From Onchidella celtica (Eukaryota; Mollusca; Gastropoda; Systellommatophora; Onchidiidae): 64,000 bases of DNA. The translations under genes were made by a program, and so were the position numbers. The notes beneath the pieces are model-generated. The model ran no database searches, had not been told where the DNA came from, and saw only the letters and a list, made by a program, of their open reading frames with translations. Where the stretch lies: the NCBI GenBank assembly GCA_963931925.1, contig OZ007567.1, positions 96,168,176 to 96,232,175 of the forward strand. The letters are read 5' to 3'. Shown in pieces: positions 501 to 47,740 of the stretch. Numbering within the stretch: position 1 is the stretch's first letter; each line of letters begins with the position of its first letter.

Positions 501-1421
501 ACGCTCCCCTAACAACAGCCTCTTCATCATAACATCCCCAAACCGACTGGAAAATAGGGTAAAATATCCCTTTTTACTCCAAGGGTAAATTTCCCCTACC
601 ATGAACATTAGTTCCAATGCCTGTTCACCTGGCAGAAATGCATATTGTGTACTGCAAATGGAAAAGAATAACCACAGCATCTTCTATCTGTAGAAAGGGT
701 TGAGCTGGGAGAGAAAAAAATTCTGACCTGAGAATAACACGGTGCTGTGTGACATTTAGGCTGGAAGCAGCGTAGCTCTGTAGCTCTGTAGTCTAGCTGA
801 CCTCGCACGCACCATGCAAATGAACACGATACAAGCTGTGTTCTTGAACAGCGTCGCTGTGTGGTTCGTCTGTGACCAGCGGGCTTGCACGACTCGTCAG
901 ACGGCCCATTCAACTGTGTCGTAAAACACGTCTGTCAGAGCAGCCTCGCTTCTTGAGCATTTTCTACCGAAATCCTTCACAAGTCATCAAAATCAGCAAG
1001 AAGTAAGTATTATTAGGTGCTTTACTATTAGATATTGGTGCTAGAATCGACACCTGACCACAAAATCCCAAGAAATGCACTTTATCATACATTAAAATTT
1101 CCAATCGAAAGGTTGACCTACTTTTCACATGTAGTGAAAACTGTGGACTGTGTGCTTCTGGCCTCTGGTTCTAGAATCTAGATCTAGATTGATAGTTCAG
1201 GAATTGGGATGCAGAGGAATAATCTCTATAAAGGCCTAGATTCTAGATAGATAAATCTGATCTTGATCTTGATCTACATTTAATTTTAAAGTATTCACTA
1301 CAGAATCTATCCAAATCTCTAATAAAAAGTATCTGGTGTGCAGTGTCCATAGACAAATCTCGAAGCAAGGGCTAGGTAAGGATGAAAGTAGAAGAATTGA
1401 GGAGACTGGAATTAGTTAATT

Positions 1422-1448
1422 TAAGATAAGAAAAGATAAGATAAGATC
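1422..1448. repeat. (AAGAT)n-like pentanucleotide tract
   Basis: Repeated AAGATAAGAT units run directly into ATCAACGTTTATTG. On the - strand this reads as AATAAACGTTGAT followed by (CTTAT)n. That is the layout of a retroelement 3' end with a microsatellite tail, so this may be the 3' end of a non-LTR retroelement lying on the - strand (inference). Confidence 0.4.
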
Positions 1449-1594
1449 AACGTTTATTGTCCAGTCACTGGCACATTGGCTTGGTGTTTCATAGTACATA
1501 GTACACACATGTAGTTACATAATAATACACATAGACAGGTAGCGGTTATCCATCCATGCTGTTCGGACTACATTCATCCCTACCGCCCACGGGT

Positions 1595-1630
1595 GAGCGC
1601 GCGCGCACACACACACACACAACGCGCGCA
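1595..1630. repeat. (CG)n(CA)n microsatellite
   Basis: A GCGCGCGCGC block is followed by (CA)n and then by ACGCGCGC. The two CG blocks flanking the CA tract can pair with each other or adopt alternating purine-pyrimidine Z-DNA form. Confidence 0.8.
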
Positions 1631-1941
1631 AAATTTAATATGTCATGTATAATAAAAAGCCAAGGCACATTTGATTAAATTTATGATGATGGCAGTATGA
1701 CGCATACATGTATGCCAATTTATTGTGTACAACGTTTAATGTTAGAACCATTGCAAATTCCTAGGATAAAATGGAACTAAACGTAGTCAAAAAAAGAAAT
1801 ATGTATGAATACAGGATAGCATTTTGGTAACATGGTAAAGATAAAACAATTAAAATGTACTAGCTTTTAGACTTAAGATTGTAGTTACACTAAAACAGCA
1901 GTTCCACCAGATAAGCCTGAGGTTAAATATTTTTCTTTTTT

Positions 1942-4267
1942 ATGTCAGGAAAATTTAGAATGGCTACCGGTACCCAGTCAATGTCTGATCGGGATTTCAC
2001 TGAAAGACTAATTGAGGAAGTTAAAAAACATCCTGTCCTATACAACCCGAGGGAACCAGGGTACAAGGACCGCTTCAAGGTTGAAGCAGAATGGAAAGCA
2101 GTAGCCTCTTGCGCGGGTTGCACAGGTGAGATTTCAAAGCTAGTTTATTTAGGCCTACAATCTCAGTATTTTTCAACTGTGCTCAGAAAGTCAGAACAGG
2201 ACCTGGCAACACTTTTATTTTAACCAATAAAAAAAATAATTATCTTAAGCTTAAATGATTTTTTATCCAAACCCGACTGTATGCTTATAATATATTAATA
2301 AATATAATAATAATAATAATAATAATAATGTTACTGCAGCCTTCCCTCAGAAAGAAAAATGAGCTCAAGGCGCTTTACTCATCATATATTTTCACAGATG
2401 CATAATATGCTTAAACATTTTTGATATTGAAAAGAAAAAATACATATTATACTTATAGATCTGTACATATGTACATACTTTATTTATGCATTTGCAGCAG
2501 GGCGAACATGAGCCCTTTCATACTGCCAGGGGACAGCAAGGCCTGTCATGAAGAGATTTGCAAATTTCTCTCGCACTACCATTGCCTCTTGGGTTGGCCT
2601 TCCGGTACTGGACATGGACCTTTCTGTACCGTGTTGTAGCTGGAAGAGGTTTTCATCTGTTGATGCTTCCTCGGCAGCAGAATCCACACTCGCAGGTTGT
2701 CGTCTCCGCACAAAATTATGGAGTATGCAGCACGCTAGTACAACTTTCCTAGCATTGTCAGGGTTGATCCTCAGAGTTGTCTTTAAAATCCCCCACCTCT
2801 GTGCCATTATGCCGAAAGCACACTCCACAATCCGCCGTGCCCTCGACAACCTGTAATTAAAAATCCTACGTACGTCATCAAGCCCTCTGGCAGGAAAGGG
2901 TCTCATGATGTTTGGGTGAAGTGGATACGCCTCATCAGCCACAAACACGTATGGCAAGACTTCTCCCATAATCTCATCAGGTTGTGGGAGAGGCAGCTGC
3001 TGCTGTACTAAAGCCTTACCAAAGGAAGAATGTCTCAGTATCCCACCATCCGAGTGCCTTCCTGAATCCCCTACATCAACTGCAAGGAAGTTGGCTTTTG
3101 CGTCAGCCACACCTTGCAAAACAATAGAAAAATGTTTTTTATAGTTAAAAAAAGCACTTCCAGAGTTGGGGGGGCATTCAATGTTTATATGCTTCCCATC
3201 CACTGCTCCCAAACAATGGGGAAACTGCCAAATGTTTTCAAAGGCATTTGCTTCTTCCTTCAGAGTCTCCTCAGTAGGGCGAGGCATTTCCTTGTCCAAC
3301 AGTTTCTGCCAGAGACATTCGCATGTGTCGTACACAATGCTGCGCACAGTGCTGTCGCCCATTCGGAACTGGTAGTGCAAGCTCCTTGCACTTTCTCCAG
3401 TGGCAAGATATCTGGAAGGGAAAAAAAGATGTTGAAAGTTCCTAAATTTGTGTTTGCATGATACATATATATATCATGCTCCAGCCTTACTTCTCTACAG
3501 CACAACCCATTCCCTCAATTGCAACACTCCCTGTAGTACCATATTATCTATTCTGACAGGGACTGACTGTACCCATGTAAACCATGATTCTGCCAACTTA
3601 TGGGTTAAAAAAAAATATTATTCTACATAACATCTTTTTACTTTCACTTTCAGCTGATTCTGCCAAGAAAAGGTGGCAGAATTTGAGAGGCTCATACAGC
3701 CGAAGTCGGTCAAGCCAGAATCTACCCAGTGGCTCAGGTGCACCTGGGAAAAAGAAGCCCCAGTTTTACCTGGCTCAACAGATGAGCTTCCTGGAGCCAC
3801 ACATGCAGCATGGCTCTATGCTGGGCAATTTAGGCTCCTCCGAGCCTGAGCCACTGTGGGAGGAGGGCGCCTCGGTGAGTGGCAGCCAGGGTGACTTTGA
3901 GGAAACCACTCCCAGCACATCATCCCCATCCCCTTCACCATCTGACGAGCTAGAGTCACAGCCTCTGGAACCAGCCACACCTGCCCCTGTCAACAAACAG
4001 CGGAAGAGAGCGACCCCTACTCCCGAAAAAGATGACCTCTTCAAGGAGAAGGCGGCCCGCTTCTTGGAAGCAAAGATGCAAGACAGTGCATCAAACTCAA
4101 TGCACAAAGAAGACCTCGAGAGTCTCAGGGGCCTTCTGCCTCACATGGCCACCCTCTCGGGTAGGAGGAAAAGGACCTACCTCCGCAAAATTTACAATTT
4201 ATTGTTTGAGATGGTGGAGGAGGAGGAAGATGAAAATGCTGCTAGTGCTACTATTGTGTATATTTGA
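1942..4267 (+). CDS. MADF-BESS DNA-binding protein of a PIF/Harbinger transposon
   Basis: This is a spliced two-exon gene with exon 1 at 1942-2125 and exon 2 at 3654-4267. The joins are CACAG|GTGAG and TTTCAG|CTGAT, phase 1, and the product is 265 aa. Residues about 15-85 form a MADF (Myb/SANT-like) domain split by the intron; exon 1 gives DRDFTERLIEEVKKHP and exon 2 opens with SAKKRWQNLRGSY. A Ser/Pro/Glu-rich linker follows, then a BESS-like C-terminus (DLESLRGLLPHMATLSGRRK) and an acidic tail. Harbinger transposons are known to encode a Myb-like partner of this kind that helps the transposase reach and bind DNA. No internal stop is seen. ATTAAA near 4290 could serve as the poly(A) signal. 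Its intron contains exon 2 of the opposite-strand transposase. The start is the first in-frame Met; a Met seven codons downstream is also possible. Confidence 0.85.
2312..2376 (-). repeat. Retroelement-like tail with (ATT)n, in the MADF intron
   Basis: Read on the - strand, this is GAGTAAAGCGCCTTGAGCTC, then further unique sequence, then (ATT)n. Sequences with an AAAGCGC motif followed by an ATT microsatellite are common 3' ends of interspersed repeats in marine invertebrates (general knowledge). A related + strand copy lies at 42388-42450. The (AAT)n run is at 2312-2330. Confidence 0.4.
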
Positions 4268-5212
4268 TTTTTTGTTAAATTGTTTGTGTTATTAAAAGAT
4301 ATATTTGCAAGACTTTTTTGTTTTTATCAGTCTCCCAGAATATCATTGCTATGCAGTTTTTAAATTGCTTATATATTCAAATTAACATTCATACTAATCA
4401 CAGCATTTAATAGCTTCAATATTATTAATTAATAACTAACAAGACATTGCAGATTTGTGACCTGATTCTTCGATTCGGCATCAAAGTCGATTTTGGGTGT
4501 TTTGAGTTATTGCATAAAATTGCATAAAACCGCGGGGACAGTATAATGCACACACACACACACACAAAAGAAACAACAACAAAAATAAGCTGATAAGCAC
4601 ACAAGTCAAACCAAAACAATGTTATTTATCATTACATGAAACCTGGAATGGCCGAAAGTAGTCTACAAAGGGGGTGTCGATGGCCGAGCGGTAGTGCGCC
4701 CGCCTTTTGACGAGGAGATCCTGTGTTCGAATCCGTGGAGGTTTACTGAGATTTTTTTCGGAGTTTTCATGGCTCCGACCCCGTCCTATTGGAGATGTAC
4801 CTTAAATTCGAAGGTTCTGCCTCGTAAATGACCTTACAGTGTTGCATGTGGCGTTAAACCAAAACTTAACAAAAACTTACCTAAGGGTCAATAGAAGTCT
4901 TTCTCGTGGGGGTATTGCCCGCTGAAAGTTGGTGTCTGGCTTTCGAATATCATCTTGCACAGCAGTCAAGAGCTCCTCGAAAGCGACTCTGCTCATCCGA
5001 GTATAATTATGAAATTTATCCTCATCATCACACAGTTGAGGATACAGCTTGGACATGACCCCTCTGTGCTCTCTCTCTTTGTTTATTGGGTGTGCGCGAA
5101 AGCGTCGCTTTCTTTTTCCATCCGAAAGCAAATACAGTGCAAGACCGATTCCAACATCTTCGTCTGATGATGAAGCCATTGTGATACTGATACTCACTCC
5201 AACTGCACTCAA
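2484..5212 (-). CDS. PIF/Harbinger transposase (HARBI1-like, DDE_Tnp_4 fold)
   Basis: This is a spliced two-exon gene with exon 1 at 5212-4881 and exon 2 at 3411-2484. The joins are CTTAG|GTAAGT and CTTCCAG|ATATC, phase 2. The product is 419 aa, or 408 aa if translation starts at the better-placed Met at 5179 (MASSSDEDVG). The N-terminal helical region runs across the join as LLLTLRYLATGESARSLHYQ, the usual helix-turn-helix part of this family. Catalytic-domain landmarks are GAVDGKHINIECP (Asp about 182), GDSGRHSDGGIL (Asp about 232), VFVADEAYPLHP (about 263-276) and FNYRLSRARRIVECAFG (Glu about 307). Which acidic residue completes the triad cannot be fixed by eye. The length fits active Harbinger transposases (about 350-450 aa), and there is no frameshift or stop. 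The stop codon overlaps an AATAAA signal (2479-2484). Confidence 0.9.
4548..4566. repeat. (CA)n microsatellite
   Basis: A short (CA)9 tract in the intron of the transposase gene, followed by an A-rich stretch. Confidence 0.85.
4671..4873 (+). mobile_element. tRNA-derived SINE
   Basis: The head contains an excellent RNA polymerase III A box (TGGCCGAGCGG, 4681-4691) and B box (GTTCGAATCC, 4725-4734). Spacing and flanks resemble a tRNA-Ser/Leu-type gene, but it does not fold as an intact tRNA. A unique body follows, with TTTTTTCGGAGTTTTCATGG and CCTCGTAAATGACCTTACAG, ending in GTGGCGTTAAACC and an A-rich tail. The total is about 200 bp. It lies inside the HARBI1-like intron, antisense to it, and its tail ends only a few bases before the splice donor at 4880. 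Confidence 0.75.
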
Positions 5213-5440
5213 TTCGAAATCTAGGTCAACTGAGCCTGTTGCGGGGGGGCCGCGGTTACACGGTACCTAAAAATAGCAAGGCAGCCCTGTCAGTTACAGA
5301 CGCCGCAGACGATAACCCAATGTGCGGCTGGGGTGACACGCGGCCAGCGTGCTTCGCGCTAGCGCAGACACAGACCTACAGAGCTACACTGGGACCGGCT
5401 TTATTCTCGGGTCACGCTATTACGGTTCGATATAACTGAC
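5213..5440 (-). promoter_or_regulatory. GC-rich 5' flank of the transposase gene
   Basis: This stretch is clearly richer in GC and CpG than its surroundings: GCGGGGGGGCCGCGG at 5229-5243, then several GCGC and CGCGG motifs to about 5370. It lies immediately upstream of the transposase start and probably contains its promoter and the right end of the transposon. No TATA box is obvious, and I could not place the terminal inverted repeat. Confidence 0.35.
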
Positions 5441-6300
5441 ATAAGGTGGACAGGTATCACGAACAGCGTTTCGTCAAAAAAAAACTTTTATTCTGTTAAG
5501 CTATGACTGTATGAGGTGGGGGTGGAAGGAGGGGACTGCACCGAGGAAAAGCGTATCACTCAAAACAAATAAATAGCGGTCTGAAAGATTTTCGCCAGGA
5601 AAACTTAAAAACATAAATGGCCCGTTTAGAAGAAAGCGAAGCAAAACCAAAAAGTTTCGCCTACTCACTTGTCACATATTTTATTCTATTACTTATTTAT
5701 TTTCCGTATTTACTCTATTCATTTTTTTCCTCCTTGTTTGCTTAATTCTTTCTTTGGTTCTTCGTCATGTTCTCTCTTTTCTTTTCTTAATATTTCTTCC
5801 TCCTTCGTCTACTTCGCTTCCATTATTTTCTGCTGTTGATTTTTCATTCTCTGTTGGGTTCCTCACTCTTCCTTTTCCATCCACTTCGTGTTTTCCCCTC
5901 GGGAAATTTAAACTGAGATACATTGCCATCCAATCCGCTGAAAAAGTGTAAATAAAATCATTCTCGATCTTACTTCAGTTTTATGAGTATCAGACCTGGA
6001 TCTTTTTTTTTTTTTTTCCCGCTGCATCAGCTTCCTCCTTCAGAATAAAGACGTATGAGATGCTTAGCGAGAAAGAGACACGAAGGGAAGCATTTGAAGG
6101 AACAGAAATGACTCTCTAGCAACTTCAAACGGCATACTCAATAAATGCGATTCTATATTTATGAAGAGTCAGGTCTTTCAAGTGTAAATCCGATCTAGGT
6201 TTCTTTGAATAGCTGGCGAAACTAGTGTAAAAATAAACACGCGTGGCATATAAACATTAAAAAACAGCCACAACAACCTTAATCCCGTGTAATATTTAAC
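5441..6300. other. Non-coding, T-rich DNA
   Basis: No gene is seen. The part at 5680-5880 is pyrimidine-rich on the + strand (TTC/TTT/CTT repeats), and there is a T16 run near 6003-6018. Confidence 0.6.
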
Positions 6301-6320: not shown

Positions 6321-6365
6321 GCTCTCTCTCTTTCTCGCTCTCTCTCTCTCTGTCTCTCTCTCTCG
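6321..6365. repeat. (CT)n microsatellite
   Basis: An interrupted CT dinucleotide tract that borders the 106-bp tandem duplication to its right. CT/GT tetranucleotide runs also sit at the ends of both duplicated units. Confidence 0.8.
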
Positions 6366-6370
6366 CTCTG

Positions 6371-6550
6371 TAGGGGGTGGGAGCACCGAGATCGGAAGAC
6401 AGGCTTACAGGACATTGTTCTTGACACAGAGATCTGGCAATGCAAGTCTGTCTCTTTCTCTCGCTCTATAGGGGGGTGGGGGTGGGGGCACCGAGATCGG
6501 AAGACAGGCTTACAGGACATTGTTCTTGACACAGAGATCTGGTAATGCAA

Positions 6551-6560
<10 letters not shown>
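6371..6560 (+). repeat. 106-bp tandem duplication
   Basis: Two nearly identical copies have the core GCACCGAGATCGGAAGACAG, starting at 6382 and 6488 (period 106). They run through GCTTACAGGACATTGTTCTT and GACACAGAGATCTGG to AATGCAAGTCTGTCT. Copies differ by one base in the core (GGCAATG versus GGTAATG) and in the length of the G and CT runs. This suggests a recent duplication mediated by the flanking CT repeats. Confidence 0.85.
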
Positions 6561-6581
<21 letters not shown>

Positions 6582-6630: not shown

Positions 6631-6701
6631 CATGACACCATGCTAACAGATAAAATAATATGCTCTATAAACACACATGTCAAGCTACAAACTTTGTCTC
6701 A
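6631..6701 (+). repeat. Dispersed repeat, copy 2
   Basis: This is the second copy of the element at 438-500, in the same orientation, with an 8-9 bp insertion near AAAATAATATGCTC. Confidence 0.6.
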
Positions 6702-27831: not shown

Positions 27832-28071
27832 TCCTTCAAAGGTCGTCCAAAGCGGCAGAACTTGAAATGACGGGATGAATGACTTACACATTACTACAGC
27901 AGCATGAAACCACTGCACAGTTGGCACAAGCACACACTATAGCATTGAGAGTCCTTCAAAGGTCGTCCAAAGCGGCAGAACTTGAAATGACGGGATGAAT
28001 GACTTACACATTACTACAGCAGCATGAAACCACTGCACAGTTGGCACAAGCACACACTATAGCATTGAGAG
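27832..28071. repeat. Perfect tandem duplication of 120 bp
   Basis: Copies 27832-27951 and 27952-28071 appear identical, each starting TCCTTCAAAGGTCGTCC and ending GCATTGAGAG; the next bases (TCC) continue the match. Zero divergence implies a very recent duplication or an assembly or read-joining artefact. Confidence 0.95.
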
Positions 28072-29150
28072 TCCCAGATCATGACACAGTAAAATGGAAA
28101 AAAAAGTATTTCATAAAACCCCGAGACAGCAATCCAGTGGATATTTAGAGACTGACCGGGAAAAAATCCCAAGAGAAAGGAAAGTTGAAGACCACATTGT
28201 GGGCTAATTAACCGTAGAATATATATTTTCGGAAAATAGACAGATGATCATTTTTTATTAACATATTTTTCATGAGAACAAGTGGACTGGTGACGATCAA
28301 ACAAGACTGACCAACTTCACACATTATAGCAAGCTTAAACTTAACACGGAATCAACGCCTTCCATGTCCCGCCACGCAGTACCGGACTGGCCAGGTTGTT
28401 AGCTTGCCCAATGGCAAGTGGGCCCCTGAGGAAGTGGGCCCCCTTGGACATTAGAACAAAATTATTAGCATGAAAATATTATAAAAGTTCTATTGTAATA
28501 TATCTTCAATTCTGTTACGGGGTTATGATAATTACTATTGTCTACAATATAAATCTTAAAATGTCATGAGAAACCAATCTTTTTATATTTAGCTGGTTGT
28601 AAGGTCTTTACCGTAGTTTACCTTGAAATATCTCCAGATAGCTTCAAATATTACATTTTCTTTGAAGAACAACATACGTTTTCTAACCTTAGAATATCAA
28701 CATTTCTTATTCGAAGAGGTAAGATTCTGATTCCTTCCGATATTTACACGTATATTCTTGTATATATAACACATATTTTTTTAAAAATACTTATAAGACA
28801 ATATGCCTAAAGTGTCATAACACTGAATTGAGCTAAACAAAAACAAAAAAAGAGAGAAAAACTATCAAATAGAAAAAGAAAACAACTCAAAATAAGAATG
28901 AGCAATCAAGGAAATTGGGTCAATTTTTACTTTAGGGCCCAGCCGGAAACTGACAATGAAAACATATTTTTCTAATATTTCAGACAGTTCTAAGACACCT
29001 TTCTTCTATGGCATTTCTGCGGGAAATTAGCCGTTAATGAGATACAGCCACTTCAAATTCAATACTAATTCAGCAAAGCTAAAGGAACAGACAAGAACAT
29101 TTGATAACGACCACAGCAAGGCTTTGGAATTTGTAAAAATGTAATGACCA

Positions 29151-29336: not shown

Positions 29337-30054
29337 TCCTTTGGAAACTGTACAGTCTTGCCAGTTAAGACGCAGAGAAAGAAGAAAAGAATGGCAGATG
29401 CGCTTACTGATGATGAAAGAAATTCCTCGGATTCTCTAGCTGATTTCCGGGTAAACGTGTTTAGCCTAATAATGGATCGCATTGTCCAGTCATTAGAATC
29501 ACTCTTTGTGCAACATAAATAGTTGTATAAAGATTTATCCTGTTTGGACCCAGCAAAGTTTAAAACTATTGCTAAGAAGGGCCTTGAAGATGAAGCATTG
29601 GAAAGTATTATTAAGCTGTTTCCACAAATCAGCAAAGATGAAGTAAAATTGGAATTGGCTTCTTTTGCTTCGAAGTTTGATGTATTAAAGCTGTTGCTTA
29701 ATGATGGTGAATCTAGTTGCAACAATTGTAAAAATTTGCAGCACCTGCCCATCGTGTGTTCTTAAAATTCTGGCATCGAACAGATTTCATGACAAGGCAT
29801 AATTTTATGATATCATTTATGAACCTTATAAAGTCATCTGCACACTATCACTTACTCAAGTCAAATGTGAGAGGACATTTTCAAAGCTGAAGATCATTAA
29901 GACAAGGTTAAGAAATTCGCCGTCTGTGGAGAACTTGGAATTGTACATGTTGCTATCCATTGAAAAGGAATTGCTAGATGAATTGGATGCAAAAGCAATT
30001 ATTGACAGATTCACACAAACATCTAGTGAACTCAAACGAATGCTCTTAATATAG
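29337..30054 (+). pseudogene. hAT transposase pseudogene (ZMYM1-like C-terminal half)
   Basis: Frame A (29337-29765) reads FRVNVFSLIMDRIVQSLES and, after a TAG at 29520, LYKDLSCLDPAKFKTIAKKG. It ends at a TAA at 29763. Frame B (about 29803-30054) resumes with CERTFSKLKIIKTRLRNSPS and LELYMLLSIEKEL, the C-terminal hAT dimerisation domain. A TGA at 29334, the TAG and at least one frameshift show it is dead. Zinc-finger and DDE-core parts upstream are absent, possibly removed by deletion around the foldback at 29151-29291. The block CTTAATATAGTGGACTGCTT is nearly duplicated right after the stop. Confidence 0.8.
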
Positions 30055-32048: not shown

Positions 32049-33058
32049 TTTATTGATTCTGCACTTTTGCATAAATTTCTCCACAGACTTGCACAAACAT
32101 GACAGACAAGACAGAACTGACAACAAGAGAGACACCATTACTAGAAATCATGGAGATAGTTTTAAATTATACCAAATTTTGACTCATTAACTAACAAAGG
32201 TCAGAATACCAGGATAAAAGGGGGCAAGAAGGACTTAGCAGTAACCAATCATACCATCAAAAACAAAAAGAATGGGAACCTCTTAAAAAAAACTGTCACA
32301 ACATGATCACAATAAAGAAATTACACACAGTAAATTACAAGTACTTGAGACACTAACAAGTGCATGAACATATCAAGTTTATTTGACATAAGACATGGGT
32401 GTGTTAAAAAACAATGAATATCCACTGCAAAAAATTTTTGTTTTTCGTTAGAAGAATAGTACAGTTATTATACACTTTATCATTTACCTGAGGTTATGAA
32501 CACCACTCAGGCATAATAAATGTGATAATCTGTTTCAAATTGGTATCTCAGTTACAGTAGGCAAGGTGATTGTAGTGAAGAGCTTCATTTTTATCTGACA
32601 GTTCATAACTACTGCAATATATTATGGAGAGGCTGACATGGACAGTTGCTTTTGCCCCGTGATGCGACTTTTACACACACAGGATGACTCCCAGATATTA
32701 CTGGGAAGGTGTCAAACTAGTAACTGTGTAGATAAGACAGCAGGGGATTCAGAAAGTGTGCTAATATGCTAACTGTTACCACATGATCATGGTCAATGTA
32801 AATAATATGATTTTACTTATCAAATGCCATATGAAAGACCACTATTTGTATGCTATGGTTCACTTCTGAAGCATGACAATAGGTAATATGGTATGAATGA
32901 AACAAAATGAAAACTTTCCCTTGCCAATCAAATTAAATTCTCATCACTTGACAACAGGTACTATCAAAACTCCTTGTAGACCCAAGTTTATCCAGAAACG
33001 TAAACAAGAAAAAAACTTCATACAGAATTCAGGAAATGAACGTTAGATTCAAATTACT
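32049..33058 (-). other. Probable 3' UTR of PSMD4
   Basis: Non-coding sequence follows the PSMD4 stop codon. An AATAAA signal on the - strand lies at 32054-32049. A second AATAAA (33063-33058) overlaps the stop codon itself and would give an almost UTR-free transcript. The extent is inferred; no transcript data are available. Confidence 0.45.
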
Positions 33059-36000
33059 TTATTTCTGATTGTTCTTGTCATCTTTCTTATCTGATTTTTT
33101 GGTATCTTTTGTTAAGCTGCTCATTGCACTCTGAATAACTTCGCTATTAGGGTCCACGCCAGGTAAACTTTGTAATACATTTTGCAGGAAATCTGGGTCA
33201 TTCATTACTTCTGAGTAGTCTTCTTCTTCGTCCTGAGAATACAAATCAACAATGGCATTAATTAAAATGGTTTGAACAGGCAAAATGATAAAGGTATGAC
33301 TACTTTTGTTCAGCCTCTGATTGTGTAAATTAAGTGGAACTTTTCATTGTTTCTTTTTTGTATGCACCCACCCACATGATTAGATTTAATATTCAAAATA
33401 AGTCATTCTCCATGACATTCTGCAACCAAATCAGACCCTATGTTAGTCCTTACATCCATAGATCCAAGTTCCATGAAAGCTAAAAGTTTAAGTAAGATAA
33501 CTCAAACCCTCCTTGCTGATCCCATCACACATAAATGTTCAGATTATTATGTTTAGCTTATTTAGACATTGTAAACTTTGCAACATGGAACAAATAATTA
33601 AAACAATTTGGTGCGCATCTGAATCATAAATCTACAACCAATCAATTCTGTGGAGTATGACATACATTGCTGTAATTTTCAAACGAAGTCCTTTGCAACA
33701 ACAATTAAATACCAACACAACTTTCTGAGATTCCAGAATAAAATACCTTGGCGATTAGCTAATAATACACACTTTTTTAAGGTTTAATATTTAAAATAAT
33801 TTGGAGACAGTTGGTTACCTTTTTCTGATCTGCTGACTTTGCTGATGCTCCAGCAGTATCCTCTGTTTCCATGGGAGCTGGGGTATTCTCTTCTGTACTC
33901 ACACCTGGAATTCCAGAAACAGGAGACAGCAACTAAAGAAATGCTATTGAATGTGAATGAAAATACTTAATTAACAAAATACGAATTCTCTTTTTGAAAA
34001 AGCTATGATCTGTACTTTAGAAAGAGAATGAGTATTCTTAAATACAGAGTATTCACCTACAGCTCTTTCTAATTTAATTACTAATTGAACCTCTAAGACC
34101 CAACTTGTTGCAACATTGCTAAACCCGGTCCGTAGACCTACAACCTCCCTCCCCCATTTCTGTCATTCTAAGGGCAGGATTTGATGCTGTTGCTACTGCA
34201 ACTGATACACTAGGAAGTCCTGGCTTCTACGGCCCCTTTGTAGTGAATGGATAGCAGTCTTATAACCAACATCGAGCTATTTTACTTTTCATCCCATGCC
34301 ACGATGTGGATTCTTTTCCAATTCAGGTACCAAAAAGCAGACAAGTTGATGTTTGAAGTAAAGTGCCTCTCTTGTTCAGTTATAAATTCCTTTGCTGTTC
34401 AACAAGGGGAAAATGAGAAATCATAGAAATTCTGTATCAGCAAAACAGCTGTTCAGATATTCAGTTTACCTGTATTTTCCATGGACAATCTCATGGCATA
34501 CGCAATTTGCTCATCTTCAGACATGGTAGCAAAGTCCATGCCACTTGGTGTTGGGTTGGCTGACTGTGGGGCAGACTCTCCTGGATTGAGAGATGTGCCG
34601 AGGGCTCTTTCTAGCAACTCTTCATCTGCAGAAGCTGTGAAATGGATAACAGTATTTTTATCAGGAAATTCTACAAAAAGATTTACTGAAACACTTGCAT
34701 CACCAACACTTGTAGAAGCATAGCACAGAATCCCATTTGAGCACCACCTTTCTATGAAACACTGACAAAAATAAGGATTGCATAAACCTTTCAGGACTAC
34801 ATAATCATGACCCCAAGAATATAACAAACAGTATGAAAAAATTGAAGTAAAAAAAAAGAAAAATTGCTATCAGTGGATTTCCCTGAACCACACACAGCAT
34901 GTCAGAAATGAGCGATTCACTGATGTTTTAATGATTTCTGGTATACACTAAATGACAGACCGTATTATGCTGACAGACCTGCAGAAACAGCCCCTGATTC
35001 TCCTGTTGTGGCAGTTGTAGTGTCTCTTATCTCCTTCTCTTGCCTTGCTCTTTGTTCCTCCATAGACACCCTGAGGGCCTGTTAAACAACAACAACAGAA
35101 AAAACGGTGATCAATCAATATTTTGTCACATTATCTAAATTGTTGCTTTAGTAGTATGGGATTGTTTGTGTTGCTGTAATTGGACTAGCTTATTGCTTTA
35201 TAGGTTGCTTCCTTGAAGCTGGTAACAATGAAAATATTTTACAGATCATATAAAGTGACAAAAAGAGTCAGCAAAACACACTTCACCAGTATATTGGTTC
35301 TTGCTATCAATGACAAACAGAGGTGAGGCCAGAAACTTATAGAAAGTTTGCAACACGATTGTAAAATATTTGTAAGTATGCTCTTCTACAGTAATCATTT
35401 CTTGTCCAAGAAAAATACCTGATGAATCTGCGAGGAGATATCTTTCTCCAAGACTAACGTAAACTTACCAGAGCAAGCTCTGGGTCTTCATTTGGATCCA
35501 CCCCAAACTCAAAGCCTGCTCCAGTCATATTGGCACCTGCCCCATCTTCTCCAACAATCACGGGAGAGCTGAGCAGGGCATCTGACAGCATGGGACCAGG
35601 GGGCACAGTCACCAAATGAGAGCTGTGGAATAGAACAGACAAACATAAGTTAAAAAAAATAAAAGAAAAATGGCTGAATAATGGGACAAAAAGTAATGAG
35701 AAAGTATTTGGTATTCTTCTCTGGCAAATCACGTCCCATGGTGACTTACCAGCCCAGAAAAATTATTATAATTCTGTATTATCTGGTACAATAATTACTC
35801 TTACTCTCAATGCAACACATAAAAATATGCTTTTATTTTGAATGGTCTCCTCCAAATTTCAGTGCTTATAAAAATGGTTAAAGACATATTTAACAAAAAC
35901 CATAGTTTATGAGAAAATAACAAAAGGAACTGAAGACTTGGTCCATCAAGTAAATTTTTAATGTTCTGTAGAAAAAAATAAAAAAATAAATAAAAGTTGA

Positions 36001-39000
36001 CGATTGAGATGCATGTAATACTCAACCTTGTTCCATCTTTTCCATTGATAGCATTCACAAAAGCAGTGAGTTTGTCTGTATTGATGCCCTGCAGATAAAC
36101 AGATGTCCAAGATTTTGTCTTGGTTGAGTGAGGTGTAGCGATGCCCATTTACAACTCTAAGAAATGCTAAGAGCCACTTGTGTTCAACGATTGATAGATA
36201 TTATATTGTAATAAAAGGAAAAATGATATCTTTTCTAGCCAACTTAATCTCATAAATCAAGTCTCCATGTCATAATTGCAGCATGTTAATCAAAGTGGTG
36301 CGTGGTACAGGGTGTGCAATCCTAGTCTTTGAAAGCAGATGGGGAACATTAAGAAAGACACCTTTACGGCCTGAATTACTAAAGGTGCATGCTAATAACT
36401 ACAATTATTTATGAAACCATTTCTTTCTCAATCAGTATCTGAACTTTCAGACAGCAGCAAATGGATCATGAACATCAAAAATAAGATGTTTTGCCCATTT
36501 TCAAGGTATATAAACTGCTAAACCTTACCTCCTCTCCGAAATTCACAACATCCACATTCACTTTCTCCTTCTTCAATCTCTTGGCAGCTTTCACCAACTG
36601 AAATGAAACAGGATCAAAGAAAGTGTAAAGAAATTGTTATTCAAGCTTAAAACTTGATGAAAAATTCTGAGTTAATTTCACTGAAAAGTACAAAGCAAGA
36701 GATCTCTTGGTTAATTTTCAAACAAGTTAATTAACAGAGATTAAACTAAAATACGTTTCAGTGTGAAAGAAATACTTGAAGCAATACCTTTCAAAACCAG
36801 CAATTTCCAAAAATCATAAATACGTTCATATATATTCAAATAACGTTTCTGGAATATTTGAAAGAAATGATAAAGTTATTTGTCTTTACCTCTTTTTCAT
36901 CCATTTCAATAGGACTGCCGACGAAGACAACAATGCGCAGCTTGTGATTACGCCCTTGCCGATGTTTTAATGCCAGCTGGAAGACAAAAGTGATGAAAAG
37001 TTGTGGAAAATAAATAATTTCACGTCATCATAAACAGTCACCAGATAATAAGTATGTTGGTCTGCAGTATCACACTCAAAAGACAATATGTAATATGATT
37101 ATTTGAACTGATAATAGAATAGAATCAATGACCTGTGCTCCTGGGAAAGTGAAACAACATTTTGACCAAAAGCCGCAATTGAACACTCCACACAGTATAA
37201 AAACTGCACAAGAACTGCTTCTAGAATATTCACAGATAAATCCCTCCTTCAAGACATTTAAAGAGTAATTTAAATACAAAAAGAAAAAAAGCAATATGAA
37301 TAGCATCTAGATAAAAGCTATAGGTGAATAAATTTGTAGGGCCTATGGTTGTCTTTGCAACAGTAAAAATTTGCTGGACAGAAAATACTTACAGGAATGC
37401 AATTACAGGGATGTAAATGGCCTCCTGAAAAATTCTCTGAAGCCAACGCGGCGTTCTTTGAAACAAGTTCTGACACTGCGGCGCGCAGGCTATTTGTCTA
37501 ACTCTAATGAACCATGATGGAAAACATAACACATAACAACCTAATAAACTTAACTTTACAGTTTTACATCAAATATTTAAAGTAACATACCTTTTTGGGC
37601 TTTGATTATTAAGTCCATGATCTTACTGTCAAAGTATAGGCCTAGAGTAGATCTAGGCTACATAATATCTACATAATCTAGAAAAAGATCAAGATTTCTA
37701 GACCAATATAGATCTATTCTGCGTATCACAAGCCAGCACTTGCTCCTTGATCACAACATTCTGTCACTTAATGAACTTTTCAAAACAGACCGGTTAGGCT
37801 ATGTAGAAGATATAGATCTAGAGTAGACCTATATTAATTTTTAAAGCAAAGATCAGCCACCACACTCAATATTTCTATAATATAGCAATGTTAATAGAGT
37901 CAAAAAATTAAAGCAATATAGATCTAAATAATTCTTTGAGAAATCCAGGAATTTGAAGAAGCGTATGTGTAACAAAATCGGTTGTTCCAAGGCACGAGAT
38001 TGACAAGATTTGAAGTGGAAATGACGTGCGAATCTTCACTAGGCCAGACAGTTGACTTGGCCTATGACTAGAGTCTCGTCAGACTTCACAAAAATTATTA
38101 AAAACATGGAAATGTGCGCCTCCTTTAAAACCCTATGAACATGCTAGGAAGCATGATGAAACAACCACAATGGTATGAAACGAAGGAATATGCTATGGAA
38201 CATAAATCTTTCTAACGTCGGTGAAACACGTGTACGCCTTTGTCTAGGCCTACATCTAGTTATAACCCGTGATCGTCAATTACGTTCGAAGATTTTAAAA
38301 GTCTGCCGACCTAGATCTACCAGGAGTTACCACCGCCAAAGATGAGGGGGGGGGGGGAAGTTATTGCGAGTTCGGGCATACGCAGTACGGCAGAACACGG
38401 TAGGGTAGAGCTGCCACGTTTACGGTCGCACCTGTTGAATCGCTAGGTCCGGCGCTATTACTTTTAGTGGTAGCTATGGAAATGAATCAACGCTCGGAAC
38501 AGAATTTCGCTCTCGTCTATTCATTAAAAAAGAAAAAATCGGGAGTCTGATTCTCTCCGAAATCGGAACCAGAAAGAAATTCTCGGATTTCCGAGGATTC
38601 TCGGAAGATTTACATCCCTGCAATTACTCTTTTATGAGACCATTTTCAAAAGTTCCTGTGCATTTGCAAAAGTTGTCACTCAGACATAAGTTGTGAAATA
38701 GTCTTGGGACAATAGATAGGAGAATGGATAAAAATGCCCCTCCCTTTCAGCCCTAATGAAATTACATTTTACAATGCAATACACTGCCTGTTAACTCCTG
38801 GCATAGAACAAGCTGATTGCATCATTTAAATTGTCATGTTTAATAAAAGACTGTCTGTATCTACCAATCAAAATGAACTCCATCATGTGTTTTTCTTATC
38901 AGTATGCTATTACTAACATGTGCCACTCGAACTGCAGTCATAAAATTAATGTCCCCTCCAGGCTGGACTTGGTGGAGTCTAGCAAGTATGCGGCCAACAT

Positions 39001-41544
39001 CAGAAGTCAGCGTTACCAGAACTTCAGTACTGAAACAACAATAACAAAAAAAAAACAACAGCTTTAAGCATTCTGCAACAATTTCCCCGTGCAGAATAAA
39101 ATGTAAACTTTTTATAATTCTTTACCATCAATTTTCATGACAAAGATTTGATACACCACTTACACACAGAACTTTTTTTTAGTTAATTAAAAATACTTCT
39201 CTGATATTCACCGAAGTTCAGGGCTGCAGATCACCCATTCAAAAGGAAAGAAATATGAAAATTCAAACCAAGAATCCAATTTCTTTTCATGCTAAAGCTG
39301 GCATTTTAAAGACAATGCAAGGTCTAATTTATTGTGTGCACAATATATCGACACTCTCCTCCTGTTTCACACTTGAACTCCAACAAAATTAACACTGGTT
39401 GTTACTGAAATGAATAGTGCTACTGTTACCAAAGCTGCTAAACTGTTTTGCAAAATCAGATTTCAAAAATTTCATTGTACACAAGTGGACTGATGAAGTT
39501 AATGTTTGTGAGCACTTTTTTCACTTTACTGTTTGAACAACGGCAGAAATTCTAAACATGGGACTAAATTCTACTAGAGATCCATGTGTAACTGCACATT
39601 TCAAGGATCATGTACACACAAAAGCTTACTGTAAGGAATCAATTTAGGACAACTCCTTTCACATCCTAACATCTGCAAATAAGGAAAACCTGGAATGATG
39701 GTGATAATGTTGGTGGATATGAATCACTGATACTGCTTTAGGTGAGGCATCTTATCTGTCTCAACTGAGCTACTGATAACTGGGATAGAAAGAACATTTT
39801 TTGGGAGGAGTTCCATTTGAGTAACACAACAGGGTTATTACATTATTACAAGGACACGACTTTAGGGTAGCCACACAAAGGCCACCGAGCCACTAGGCGC
39901 TTTAGGTGAGAAGAATTGCACTATATAAACGGACCGAATCTAGGTGGGCTCTATGTGCAGTTGTTGAAATTATATAGTGCAATTCTTCTCACCTAAAGCG
40001 CCTAGTGGCTCGGTGACCGAATTCGGTGGCCTTTGTGTGGCTACCCTAAGAAGTGTCCAAGTGCAGTGGAGGGGGGTGGGGGGGGGGGGGGGCATCGCCC
40101 CACTGAAAAGTTGGTAACCTGGATGGATGGTTTTAGAGTAAATGATTACTAAATGCGGGGCTCGGTGAAAAATACACAGAAACATGAAAAGGTAGGCTAC
40201 AACTACCACAAGACTAAAGTTGTGTAAATCCTATGGTACCCCTCCACGATTTTTTTTTGTGAAAAGTGTTAAAAATTTACTTACAATGCCATCTTGAGCA
40301 GACCAACATTATTCTCAGGATTAGATCTGGTCTTGGACATGCACACAAGATTGACTGCGTCCTGTTGTGCCTGCATGCGAGTGGGGACAAAATCCCCATT
40401 ACGCATGTAGTCACTGTTGTCAACACTGAAATAAAAAATTTCCAAACCATGAGACAAGTGAAAGACCCAAGATGCATTCAGGTTATTGATAGCATGCCTG
40501 AGGAAACATTAGGCCTATACTCAGAAATAGAAATTAAGATGTAGGGCTACAGTGAGAATGATAGCATGTCATCAGTGAGAGAATAACAGGCAACAATATA
40601 TTATCTGTCAATAAGAAACACTGATTATGCTCAGCTAACACTCAGTAACAGTACTCTTACTATATGACACATCATTTGGTGATCACTAGAAGTCCAGTAG
40701 ACAACATATTCATGGCTCAAATGTCCATGGCCTGACTAGCAAGATTTCAATTTTGGATAAAGACGAAGACAAACCTGAATATTATCCGAACTTTGGAATG
40801 ATGATCCAATCCATCAGTTTCAAATTTCCTCCCCAGAGGAATAATTGATTATAATGTATGTAGACATGGGTAGGCCTATATCATAATTTGACATAATCAT
40901 TTAAAATAAACTGTACCTTGTCTCCCTGAGAGTCTGAAAAGCCAGCGGCAGATTTAACCACTGGAAAGAGTTCGTACATTCTGACTACCCACCAGTCAAT
41001 GAACCATAAACCCATCCCTAATCCTGTCCTTGTTCCAACCTAAGTTTAGAACTAAAATCTAGACCTAATCTTTTCATTCACCGACGACCGTGTGCGATAT
41101 CCTTTTCTGTTTCAAGTTCAACCAGAAACTGAGAAAGGTTTAGTTTTATTAAGGAAAAGCTGGTCGGGACGTAGGTAGTTCCATCCAATATGGCCTTGGA
41201 TGGAAAGAAAAAAAAAGGGGGCATATTCGATTGCAACTAGGCTAGACAACATAGATCTAGAACGAATTATTTTTTCTTGATTGGTGCATCGAAAAAAGGC
41301 GATGAAATTCTTTCTGACTGGTCCGTCGGTTTTGCTCGGGGTGCTGCGTCATCGGCGACAAACTCGGTTCAGCAGTGCTTTGAGAATCATTCACATCTTA
41401 TTTGTTTTGCTCGACAGTAATAAGACAACACAAAATAAAAAATCCTTAAACGGAAAGTTGACTTGACACAAAGTCCCCTCAATTTGTTGCAAAATACATA
41501 AATTTTGATCTAACTTACCATATCATAGTACTTTCCAGCACCAT
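33059..41544 (-). CDS. PSMD4: 26S proteasome regulatory subunit 4 (Rpn10/S5a), 11 coding exons
   Basis: PSMD4 is a ubiquitin receptor of the 19S proteasome cap. Exons: 41544-41519, 40425-40285, 39029-38918, 36976-36890, 36597-36529, 36088-36027, 35622-35469, 35078-34979, 34634-34470, 33904-33819, 33232-33059. All have GT-AG joins, and the frame runs on for 391 aa (human 377). A VWA domain covers about residues 5-190 ([50 protein letters not shown]). UIM1 is at about 210-230 ([15 protein letters not shown]) and UIM2 at about 288-305 ([13 protein letters not shown]). Between them [13 protein letters not shown] (254-266) looks like a third UIM. The C-terminus has [16 protein letters not shown] and a Lys-rich tail. 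At the exon 2/3 join, GLLKMAFTEVLVTL is one residue shorter than human. The first coding exon is only 26 nt. Single-copy essential gene in animals; no damage is seen. Confidence 0.97.
37399..38627. mobile_element. Non-autonomous hAT element with 8-bp target-site duplication
   Basis: GCAATTAC is repeated exactly at 37399-37406 and 38620-38627. The enclosed 1213 bp begin AGGGATGTAAAT and end ATTTACATCCCT, a perfect 12-bp terminal inverted repeat. Weaker inverted similarity continues inside (CCTCCTGAAAAATTCTC versus CCGAGAATCCTCGG). There is no transposase coding; the interior has a G12 run (38346-38357) and several TCTAGA/AGATCT motifs. It lies wholly within PSMD4 intron 3. Confidence 0.85.
39852..40059. 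repeat. Large foldback hairpin in PSMD4 intron 2
   Basis: The left arm 39862-39928 (TTAGGGTAGCCACACAAAGG...ACTATATAA) matches the right arm 39970-40049 as a perfect inverted copy of 67 bp, apart from a 13-nt insertion in the right arm. The insertion creates the palindrome ACCGAATTCGGT. Outer GGACAC motifs extend the pairing. The loop is about 41 nt, with no coding. This is a foldback or MITE-like element or a young inverted duplication; a G15 run (40078-40092) follows. Confidence 0.9.
40078..40092. repeat. Poly-G run (15)
   Basis: A G homopolymer inside PSMD4 intron 2, next to the foldback hairpin, preceded by interrupted G tracts from 40070. Confidence 0.9.
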
Positions 41545-45894: not shown

Positions 45895-45960
45895 ATGGCA
45901 TTGGTTTCACTATTGTGCCATAATAATATCTGGGGTTTCACCATTGTTCCATAATAATGA
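45895..45960 (+). repeat. Outlying copies of the 31-bp minisatellite
   Basis: Two diverged units with the same text as the main array (GGTTTCACTATTGTGCCATA and GGGGTTTCACCATTGTTCCA) lie about 400 bp to its left. Confidence 0.7.
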
Positions 45961-46046
45961 AGATCATTTATAACACCCAATCCAAACAATTTGCTTGTAG
46001 GCGCTTTACAGGAAGTTTTGGTCTTGTTGTCTCCATCTGCAACTCA

Positions 46047-46104
46047 CCCTCTCTCTCTCTATCTCTCTCTCTCTCTTTCCCTCTCTCTCTTCTCTCTCTC
46101 TCTG
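46047..46104. repeat. (CT)n microsatellite
   Basis: An interrupted CT tract between the outlying and main minisatellite copies. Confidence 0.85.
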
Positions 46105-46350
46105 CTAGACATACATTGTATACATAGATACACACATATTTATTAACATACTATAAGCCAGAACTTCAGAAGGCAGAAATTAAACAGTGAAACAGCAAAA
46201 ATAAAGTGAATTGAGAAGATAAATGGATTGGGAATGAGACCACAGCTAGAAGTGTTTTTTAAAAACGTGGGTTTTTAGATCAGTTTTGAATTTTGACTCA
46301 GTAGATGCTTCTCGCAATGATTTTGGCAGCGAGTTCCAGATGATATCATA

Positions 46351-46641
46351 ATGATATCTAGAGTTTCACCATTGTGCCATTATGATATCTGGGATTTCGC
46401 CATTGTGCCATAATGATATCTGGGGTTTCACCATTGTGCCATAATGATATCTGGGGTTTCACCATTGTGCCTTAATGATATATCTGGAGTTTCACCATAG
46501 TGCCATGATGATATCTGGAGTTTCACCATAGTGCCATAATGATATCTGGAGTTTCACCATAGTGCCATAATGATATCTGGAGTTTCACCATTGTGCCATA
46601 ATGATATCTGGGGTTTCACCACTGTGCCATAATATCTGGGG
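46351..46641 (+). repeat. 31-bp minisatellite, about 9 copies
   Basis: The consensus is ATGATATCTGGGGTTTCACC followed by ATTGTGCCATA. Units vary mainly at GGGG/GGAG and ATTGTG/ATAGTG. Neighbouring units share the same variants, which points to local duplication, and one unit carries an extra AT. There is no open frame of note. Confidence 0.95.
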
Positions 46642-47740
46642 ATTATTTTCCTACCCTATACGCCCCACAGTACTAATCCATCATTATTGAGTGCTCTGTC
46701 TCCATCTGTATTGCTATACGCGGATCCGCCACGCCCCACCCCCCCCCCCCCCGGCCTTTTTTTTGGGTCTCACTCACAGCTGTTGTCTGTTCACTAGAAT
46801 AATCCTGTCTTTATAATAACATTGCACAAAGTCATATGTGAATTTGTTGTGTAGGCAATGGGTTGGTTTGGGTTTCAGATATTGGGATGGATTTGTGTCA
46901 GGCCTACCCATTCTTTGCCTCTTTCCCTAACTCACTTTTCCCCCAGGCGCGTCCTCTGATATCATAGCTGTCCCGGGGGCACGGAGGGGGAGGGGGCTGG
47001 GAGTCGACGGTCCTGGTCACACCCCCACGTAGTGTGACGCAGGTTCCAACCACCTGTAAATTAGTGTAGCTTACAGAGGCTGGCATAATCAACCTCATCA
47101 GCTCCGGCTTAATTTAGCACACGGCTGTGCCTGAGATCTGCTGGGGGAGAGCAGAGCACGTACTCACCCTTTCCTTCTGCAACCTGATCTGTCTTCGCCT
47201 TCCCTCATTACCCACTCTTCTCTCCAGTCCCCCCCCCCCCCCCTCATACCGACCCAGATTCCAAAATGAATCTGGATCTTTCCTTTCCTCTTCCAGGTTG
47301 GTGCTTCCAGGTTGGTGCTTGGAGCAGCTAGCTCATTATTTCCTAAGCCCTTTTTTTTTATTTATGTAGAGGCATGGGCTGAGAGGTATGAGAAAATCTC
47401 ATGATAACATCAACTCATTTCCACTTTGTTGCGTTCAGATTATACATGCACACTGGCGTACACACACTCCTTCAGTACCTATGCACTAAGGTTTCTTTCT
47501 TTTTTGTTTTTTTGTTTTTTTGTTTGTTTTTCCCAATGCAGGCGTATAACTGTTCATTTCATATATTTTGTCGCTACTGTATTATTCCTTTCTTCTATAT
47601 ATCTCTTCCCTGCTTCCTTCTCTCTTGTGCGATTCGGAGATGTGAAATATAAATTTAGGAACCAGCAATGTCTGTATTTTGCACCTGGTTCTAACTCTTA
47701 ATTATTGCTTTTATTCTTTTAGCAATTTCATTTCCATACT
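46642..47740. other. Non-coding DNA
   Basis: No gene is supported. Contains poly-C runs 46739-46752 and 47229-47243 and a 14-bp tandem pair (TTCCAGGTTGGTGC twice, about 47293-47320). Confidence 0.6.

Follow-up and report, generated by a model that had tools for sequence, protein, structure and literature searches.

The closest described relatives of the locus considered here are the two-gene DNA transposons of the PIF/Harbinger kind and the host gene pairs that resemble them. According to Han et al. 2015 (PMC4482050), PIF/Harbinger elements, a branch of the PHIS superfamily, have a TWA target-site duplication and two ORFs (for a DDE transposase and a Myb/SANT protein). Their ends are mostly shorter than 60 bp and have A or G as the first base, and their mean length is about 4,124 bp; the portion of that paper available to us gives no exon map with which a gene layout could be compared. 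Harbinger3_DR (zebrafish, reconstructed) and Ping/Pong (rice) likewise depend on two element-encoded proteins, both of them needed; the available part of that account terms the two genes independent and mentions no interleaving (PMC2836001). In these systems the Myb-like protein attaches to the ends of the element and to the transposase, and the latter does the cutting and insertion (PMC2836001, PMC9179366). Among fish Harbinger elements the two protein trees agree for the most part, apart from a few exceptions (PMC9179366).

Harbinger elements need two mutually fitting proteins, and they repeatedly yield host gene pairs. APLG and APM of Anopheles are likewise neighbouring transposase and MADF genes derived from a single insertion, with a direction that is not always the same. 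They differ from the present locus in that the genes lie side by side (with 97 and 179 bp between them in A. gambiae), in that one pair is annotated as a single transcript, and in having neither inverted ends nor a duplication (PMC9710019). BPLG2 of cockroaches and termites is likewise a two-exon PIF transposase gene with a single long intron, which in most species measures about 900-1500 bp (here 1,469 nt), and differs in being domesticated (PMC9710019).

The present locus lies in a 64-kb stretch of the Onchidella celtica genome, called the window below. Two spliced genes on opposite strands, one for a MADF protein and one for a transposase, occupy positions 1942-5212 with their exons interleaved. 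The element around them, apparently whole, spans 759-5400 (4,642 bp), and it is like PIF/Harbinger in its duplication, in both proteins, in its G/A ends and in a length near the mean (PMC4482050). It is an element of a known two-gene kind, and its gene packing is unusual. Within the portions of the literature that we searched, a body of text outside Repbase, we found no description of interleaved exons or nested antisense genes in transposons; the layout may be described in Repbase, and we make no claim that it is unpublished. The reading that we prefer, with a probability of about three in four, is that an autonomous DNA transposon of the PIF/Harbinger type occupies 759-5400 and that its two genes are interleaved as compact packing. 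Its features are the following.

756..758, no strand: left copy of the target-site duplication TTA, in register 759/5400
759..789, + strand: left terminal inverted repeat, imperfect, with 24/31 bases matching the right end
Donor at 1003 or 1376, + strand: possible upstream leader exon, from splice scores
1949..1959, + strand: probable 5' leader ahead of ATG 1960 in the first coding exon, from the acceptor before 1949
1960..2125, + strand: MADF gene, first coding exon, MADF profile 1-34 (1942-2125 in the first-pass annotation)
2126..3653, + strand: MADF intron, 1,528 nt, carrying the antisense of transposase exon 2
3654..4267, + strand: MADF gene, second coding exon including the stop, with the rest of MADF and a weak BESS-like stretch
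4291..4296, + strand: ATTAAA, possible MADF poly(A) signal, motif only
4881..5179, - strand: transposase gene, first coding exon, ATG 5179, donor 4880 (5212-4881 in the first-pass annotation)
3412..4880, - strand: transposase intron, 1,469 nt, carrying the antisense of MADF exon 2
2484..3411, - strand: transposase gene, second coding exon including the stop, DDE_Tnp_4 at 2.4e-33 on the exon alone
2479..2484, - strand: AATAAA that overlaps the stop codon of the transposase, candidate poly(A) signal, motif only
5370..5400, - strand: right terminal inverted repeat, imperfect, matching the left end
5401..5403, no strand: right copy of the target-site duplication TTA, in register 759/5400

Gene models and splice sites

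The frames, the splice-site pairs and the domains of the two genes, like the inverted ends and the TTA duplication of the element, are read directly from the DNA. All four exon boundaries (2125/2126 and 3653/3654 on the + strand, 4881/4880 and 3412/3411 on the - strand) follow the GT-AG rule, and both spliced frames, the MADF gene on the + strand and the transposase gene on the - strand, are open. The MADF intron encloses the second exon of the transposase on the other strand, and the transposase intron encloses the second exon of the MADF gene in the same manner. To rank the junctions, every GT-AG pair that keeps one open frame within a gene's two reading frames was scored with general splice matrices, not trained on the Onchidella celtica genome. 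The MADF pair 2125/3654 ranks first of 204 with a score of 19.2 (next 15.1), and the transposase pair 4881/3411 ranks first of 151 with a score of 24.3 (next 19.2). The first-pass annotation had described each second exon as lying inside the other gene's intron, with four good splice sites and two intact frames, and on all of these points the coordinates, the ranks and the open joined frames agree with it. Both donors and the transposase acceptor are each the top-scoring site of their strand within the element. The MADF acceptor ranks no higher than eighth among those of the + strand in the element, and 155 of the 127,970 positions scored in the window do at least equally well.

The protein domains bear on the junctions as well. 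The joined MADF protein matches MADF_DNA_bdg (Pfam PF10545) over the whole profile, 1-84 of 84, at 3.5e-18 and 66.2 bits; taken exon by exon the profile is cut into 1-34 in the first exon and 43-84 in the second (31.8 and 24.6 bits). As the domain is split by the intron and becomes whole after joining, it supports the junction independently of the splice scores. The joined transposase matches DDE_Tnp_4 (Pfam PF13359) over 1-158 of 158 at 4.7e-33 and Plant_tran at 1.5e-10. A further, weak match to HTH_Tnp_4 (17.6 bits, cut-off 27) crosses the transposase junction; neither exon alone shows it. Candidate catalytic residues stand in GAVDGKH, FVADEAYP and RIVECAFG, at transposase positions 168, 256 and 293, which we take to be the DDE triad. 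The name MADF-BESS, given to the + strand gene at first, stands in its MADF half; the BESS match (PF02944) has an E-value of 0.0099 and 16.1 bits, below the cut-off of 21. A search of solved structures with both proteins returned nothing meaningful (best E 0.43 and 0.44). A transposase made of a single exon was considered and set aside, the frame of the DDE exon having no upstream ATG.

The starts of both genes are probably not where they were placed initially. The MADF protein has 259 aa from ATG 1960 and 265 aa from ATG 1942, the start chosen in the first-pass annotation. The top acceptor on the + strand of the element (score 11.1) would open the exon at 1949. This puts ATG 1942 probably inside an intron and makes ATG 1960 the likelier start. 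An upstream leader exon near the left end of the element is then likely, for which the + strand donor candidates are 1376 (9.8), 1593 (9.5) and 1003 (8.1). For the transposase, position 5212 had been given as the start; the first in-frame ATG is at 5179 and yields a protein of 408 aa. Both introns contain possible poly(A) hexamers, as motifs only: on the + strand within the MADF intron at 2226, 2297 and 2856, and on the - strand in the transposase intron at 4411 and 4203. With these hexamers in place, some transcripts might end early.

Could the exons merely appear joinable, in a copy that has been rearranged or is made of nested elements? Only one copy is seen in the window, so the layout may not be shared by a whole family. 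Two best-scoring frame-keeping splice pairs together with unbroken domains are unlikely after a random rearrangement, and one pair of ends is found; nested separate elements were set aside on that last ground. We regard accidental interleaving as very improbable.

Ends, class and age of the element

The inverted ends give a local alignment score of 37, a value that none of 2000 Markov-sampled sequence pairs reached (0/2000). Equal flanking 3-mers occur in 2 of the 33 registers tested: one gives TTA, in agreement with TWA, and the other, lying two bases farther out, gives ATT. The TTA duplication is 3 bp long and is seen at this one insertion; its shortness, the second equal register close by and the imperfection of the ends count against the preferred reading. 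In the terms used for PIF/Harbinger, we find a transposase of the DDE_Tnp_4 type, a second gene for a Myb/SANT-like DNA-binding protein in the form of the MADF gene, a 3-bp TWA duplication as TTA at 756-758 and 5401-5403, and short imperfect inverted repeats with G and A as first bases. The domains, the ends and the duplication bear out the first assignment of the unit to the Harbinger transposons.

Other members of the PHIS superfamily were compared and rejected. Pangu has an ANT duplication, AG or GG at its ends and a second ORF with no known motif; the MADF domain contradicts this, and the ATT register would put TA/AA at the ends, not AG or GG. NuwaI and NuwaII have a duplication of CWG or of TNA set between C and G, and the only equal 3-mers among the 33 registers are ATT and TTA. 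Each TTA copy has T before it, and the base after it is G on the left and T on the right, which is not the C...G context.

Within the 64-kb window, blastn of 701-5500 matched only itself, the end pieces gave no further element ends elsewhere, and the joined flanks gave no empty insertion site. Relatives were also sought in viral and prokaryote collections. With the transposase, a pattern fitted 8 stretches of the viral collection, none of which encodes a relative; a two-row alignment picked 244 viral and 26 prokaryote stretches, again with no relative among them. A motif pattern had 0 matches in the viral and 0 in the prokaryote collection, and a second motif led to one locus in the viral collection, which holds no relative (best E 2.4). 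An absence from viral and prokaryote collections is to be expected of an animal-type element and says little about animals.

We turn to the age of the copy. Neutral decay was simulated with an assumed indel rate of 0.12 per substitution. At 1% divergence 29 of 1000 copies kept both frames intact; at 2, 3, 5 and 10% none did, with 1000 copies simulated at each level. Since open frames are lost so quickly in the simulation and both are open here, the copy, as judged from its frames, is recent or its proteins are still under selection; imperfect ends cannot decide between the two without other copies. An alternative is that the pair has been co-domesticated, as DPLG7/DPM7 in flies and APLG/APM in Anopheles have been, and that selection by the host, not recent transposition, preserves it. 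The open frames, set against the rapid simulated decay, and the imperfect ends of the element go along with this view, as does the finding that such Anopheles pairs are intact and single-copy (PMC9710019). A recent insertion, however, accounts for the open frames equally well, and the element here retains recognisable inverted ends and a TTA duplication, both of which the Anopheles pairs lack (PMC9710019). Co-domestication is in our judgement distinctly unlikely.

Antisense geometry and its interpretation

Between their coding bounds the two genes are antisense to each other over 2484-4267, or 1,784 nt. This would grow to about 1.85 kb if ATTAAA at 4291 (+) and AATAAA at 2484 (-) act as poly(A) signals, and the figure of more than 2 kb proposed in the first-pass annotation shrinks accordingly. 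The two second exons are 242 nt apart, so the mature coding parts do not overlap, and the earlier statement that the mature mRNAs are free of overlap is correct for these parts. It had been concluded from this that only unspliced RNAs could pair, which goes too far. The MADF intron includes a stretch complementary to the whole of transposase exon 2 (928 nt), and the transposase intron one complementary to the whole of MADF exon 2 (614 nt). Since both second exons have their full complement in the opposite intron, a spliced mRNA from either gene could anneal to the unspliced transcript of its neighbour or to the intron cut out of it.

The geometry has a second consequence. With the second exons locked inside the opposite introns, a single crossover between two elements is unable to unite the intact MADF gene of one with the intact transposase gene of the other. 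A lock that keeps the partners together would fit the congruence of the two protein trees in fish.

Does this layout regulate the element? An intron or pre-mRNA might act as antisense to the other gene's mRNA and lead to double-stranded RNA, small RNAs and mutual damping of the transposase and the MADF protein, or the two transcriptions might collide in cis and so limit transposition. The link between splicing, RNA interference and transposon control suggested in the first-pass annotation gains no support from the sequence. The geometry permits it, as the introns complement the second exons in full, but convergent overlapping genes would give an identical geometry with no selection at all, and we hold a regulatory role to be unlikely. 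We are similarly doubtful that the interleaving itself has been selected, with the full antisense in the introns (928 and 614 nt) coupling the output of both proteins through splicing and the lock keeping co-adapted partners together.

The layout is explained most economically as compact packing of two proteins, both of which transposition requires. Each gene begins near one end and reads inwards, with one intron in its coding part, and the second exons pass each other, so that each comes to sit in the intron of the opposite gene. By analogy with Harbinger3_DR and Ping/Pong, the MADF protein would bind the ends and the transposase and bring the transposase to the ends, and the transposase would then cut and paste the element. 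The interleaving is most likely just the packing of two genes driven from opposite ends, and the complementary pre-mRNAs and introns would be a by-product until shown otherwise.

The distinction matters in several ways. A layout locked and antisense in this way would bear on the linkage of the partners, on the self-limitation of the element and on why a host should recognise the element through double-stranded RNA. If the interleaving is selected and its order is kept in other copies and species, the element would be a self-coupling two-gene unit, a form undescribed for Harbinger in the portions of the literature searched. If it is mere packing, gene prediction that is blind to strand may break such pairs, and models must splice across the other gene.

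Minor observations in and around the element

Inside the transposase intron, at 4674-4860 on the + strand, there is a SINE-like stretch in which tRNA-like A- and B-box motifs can be seen by eye. It receives no ARAGORN or Rfam call, and shuffled sequences fold as well as its first 77 nt do (z +1.0); ARAGORN finds no tRNA in the window. Should the stretch be an inserted SINE, it would date the element. The left part of the element contains an AT-rich inverted repeat at 1170-1247 with arms of 23 nt and 78% identity. A MIR403 match at the same positions, the only one from an Rfam search of 700-5500, was rejected at 23.2 bits against a threshold of 70, its folding being no better than that of shuffled sequences (z -0.56).

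Flanking the element, and not at its ends, a repeat of about 70 nt occurs at 438-501 and 6631-6701 with 84.5% identity. Exons of a host gene lie at about 33000-39100 on the - strand, and the frame 34453-34866 among them has a ubiquitin-interacting motif (PF02809, 3.2e-5) and reads like the proteasome subunit PSMD4/Rpn10. Frames at 29523-30054 on the + strand resemble, by eye, the C-terminal part of a hAT-type transposase. Tandem duplications are present at 27832-28074, exact over 123 nt, and at 6349-6574 and 45903-46644, at about 87-92%.
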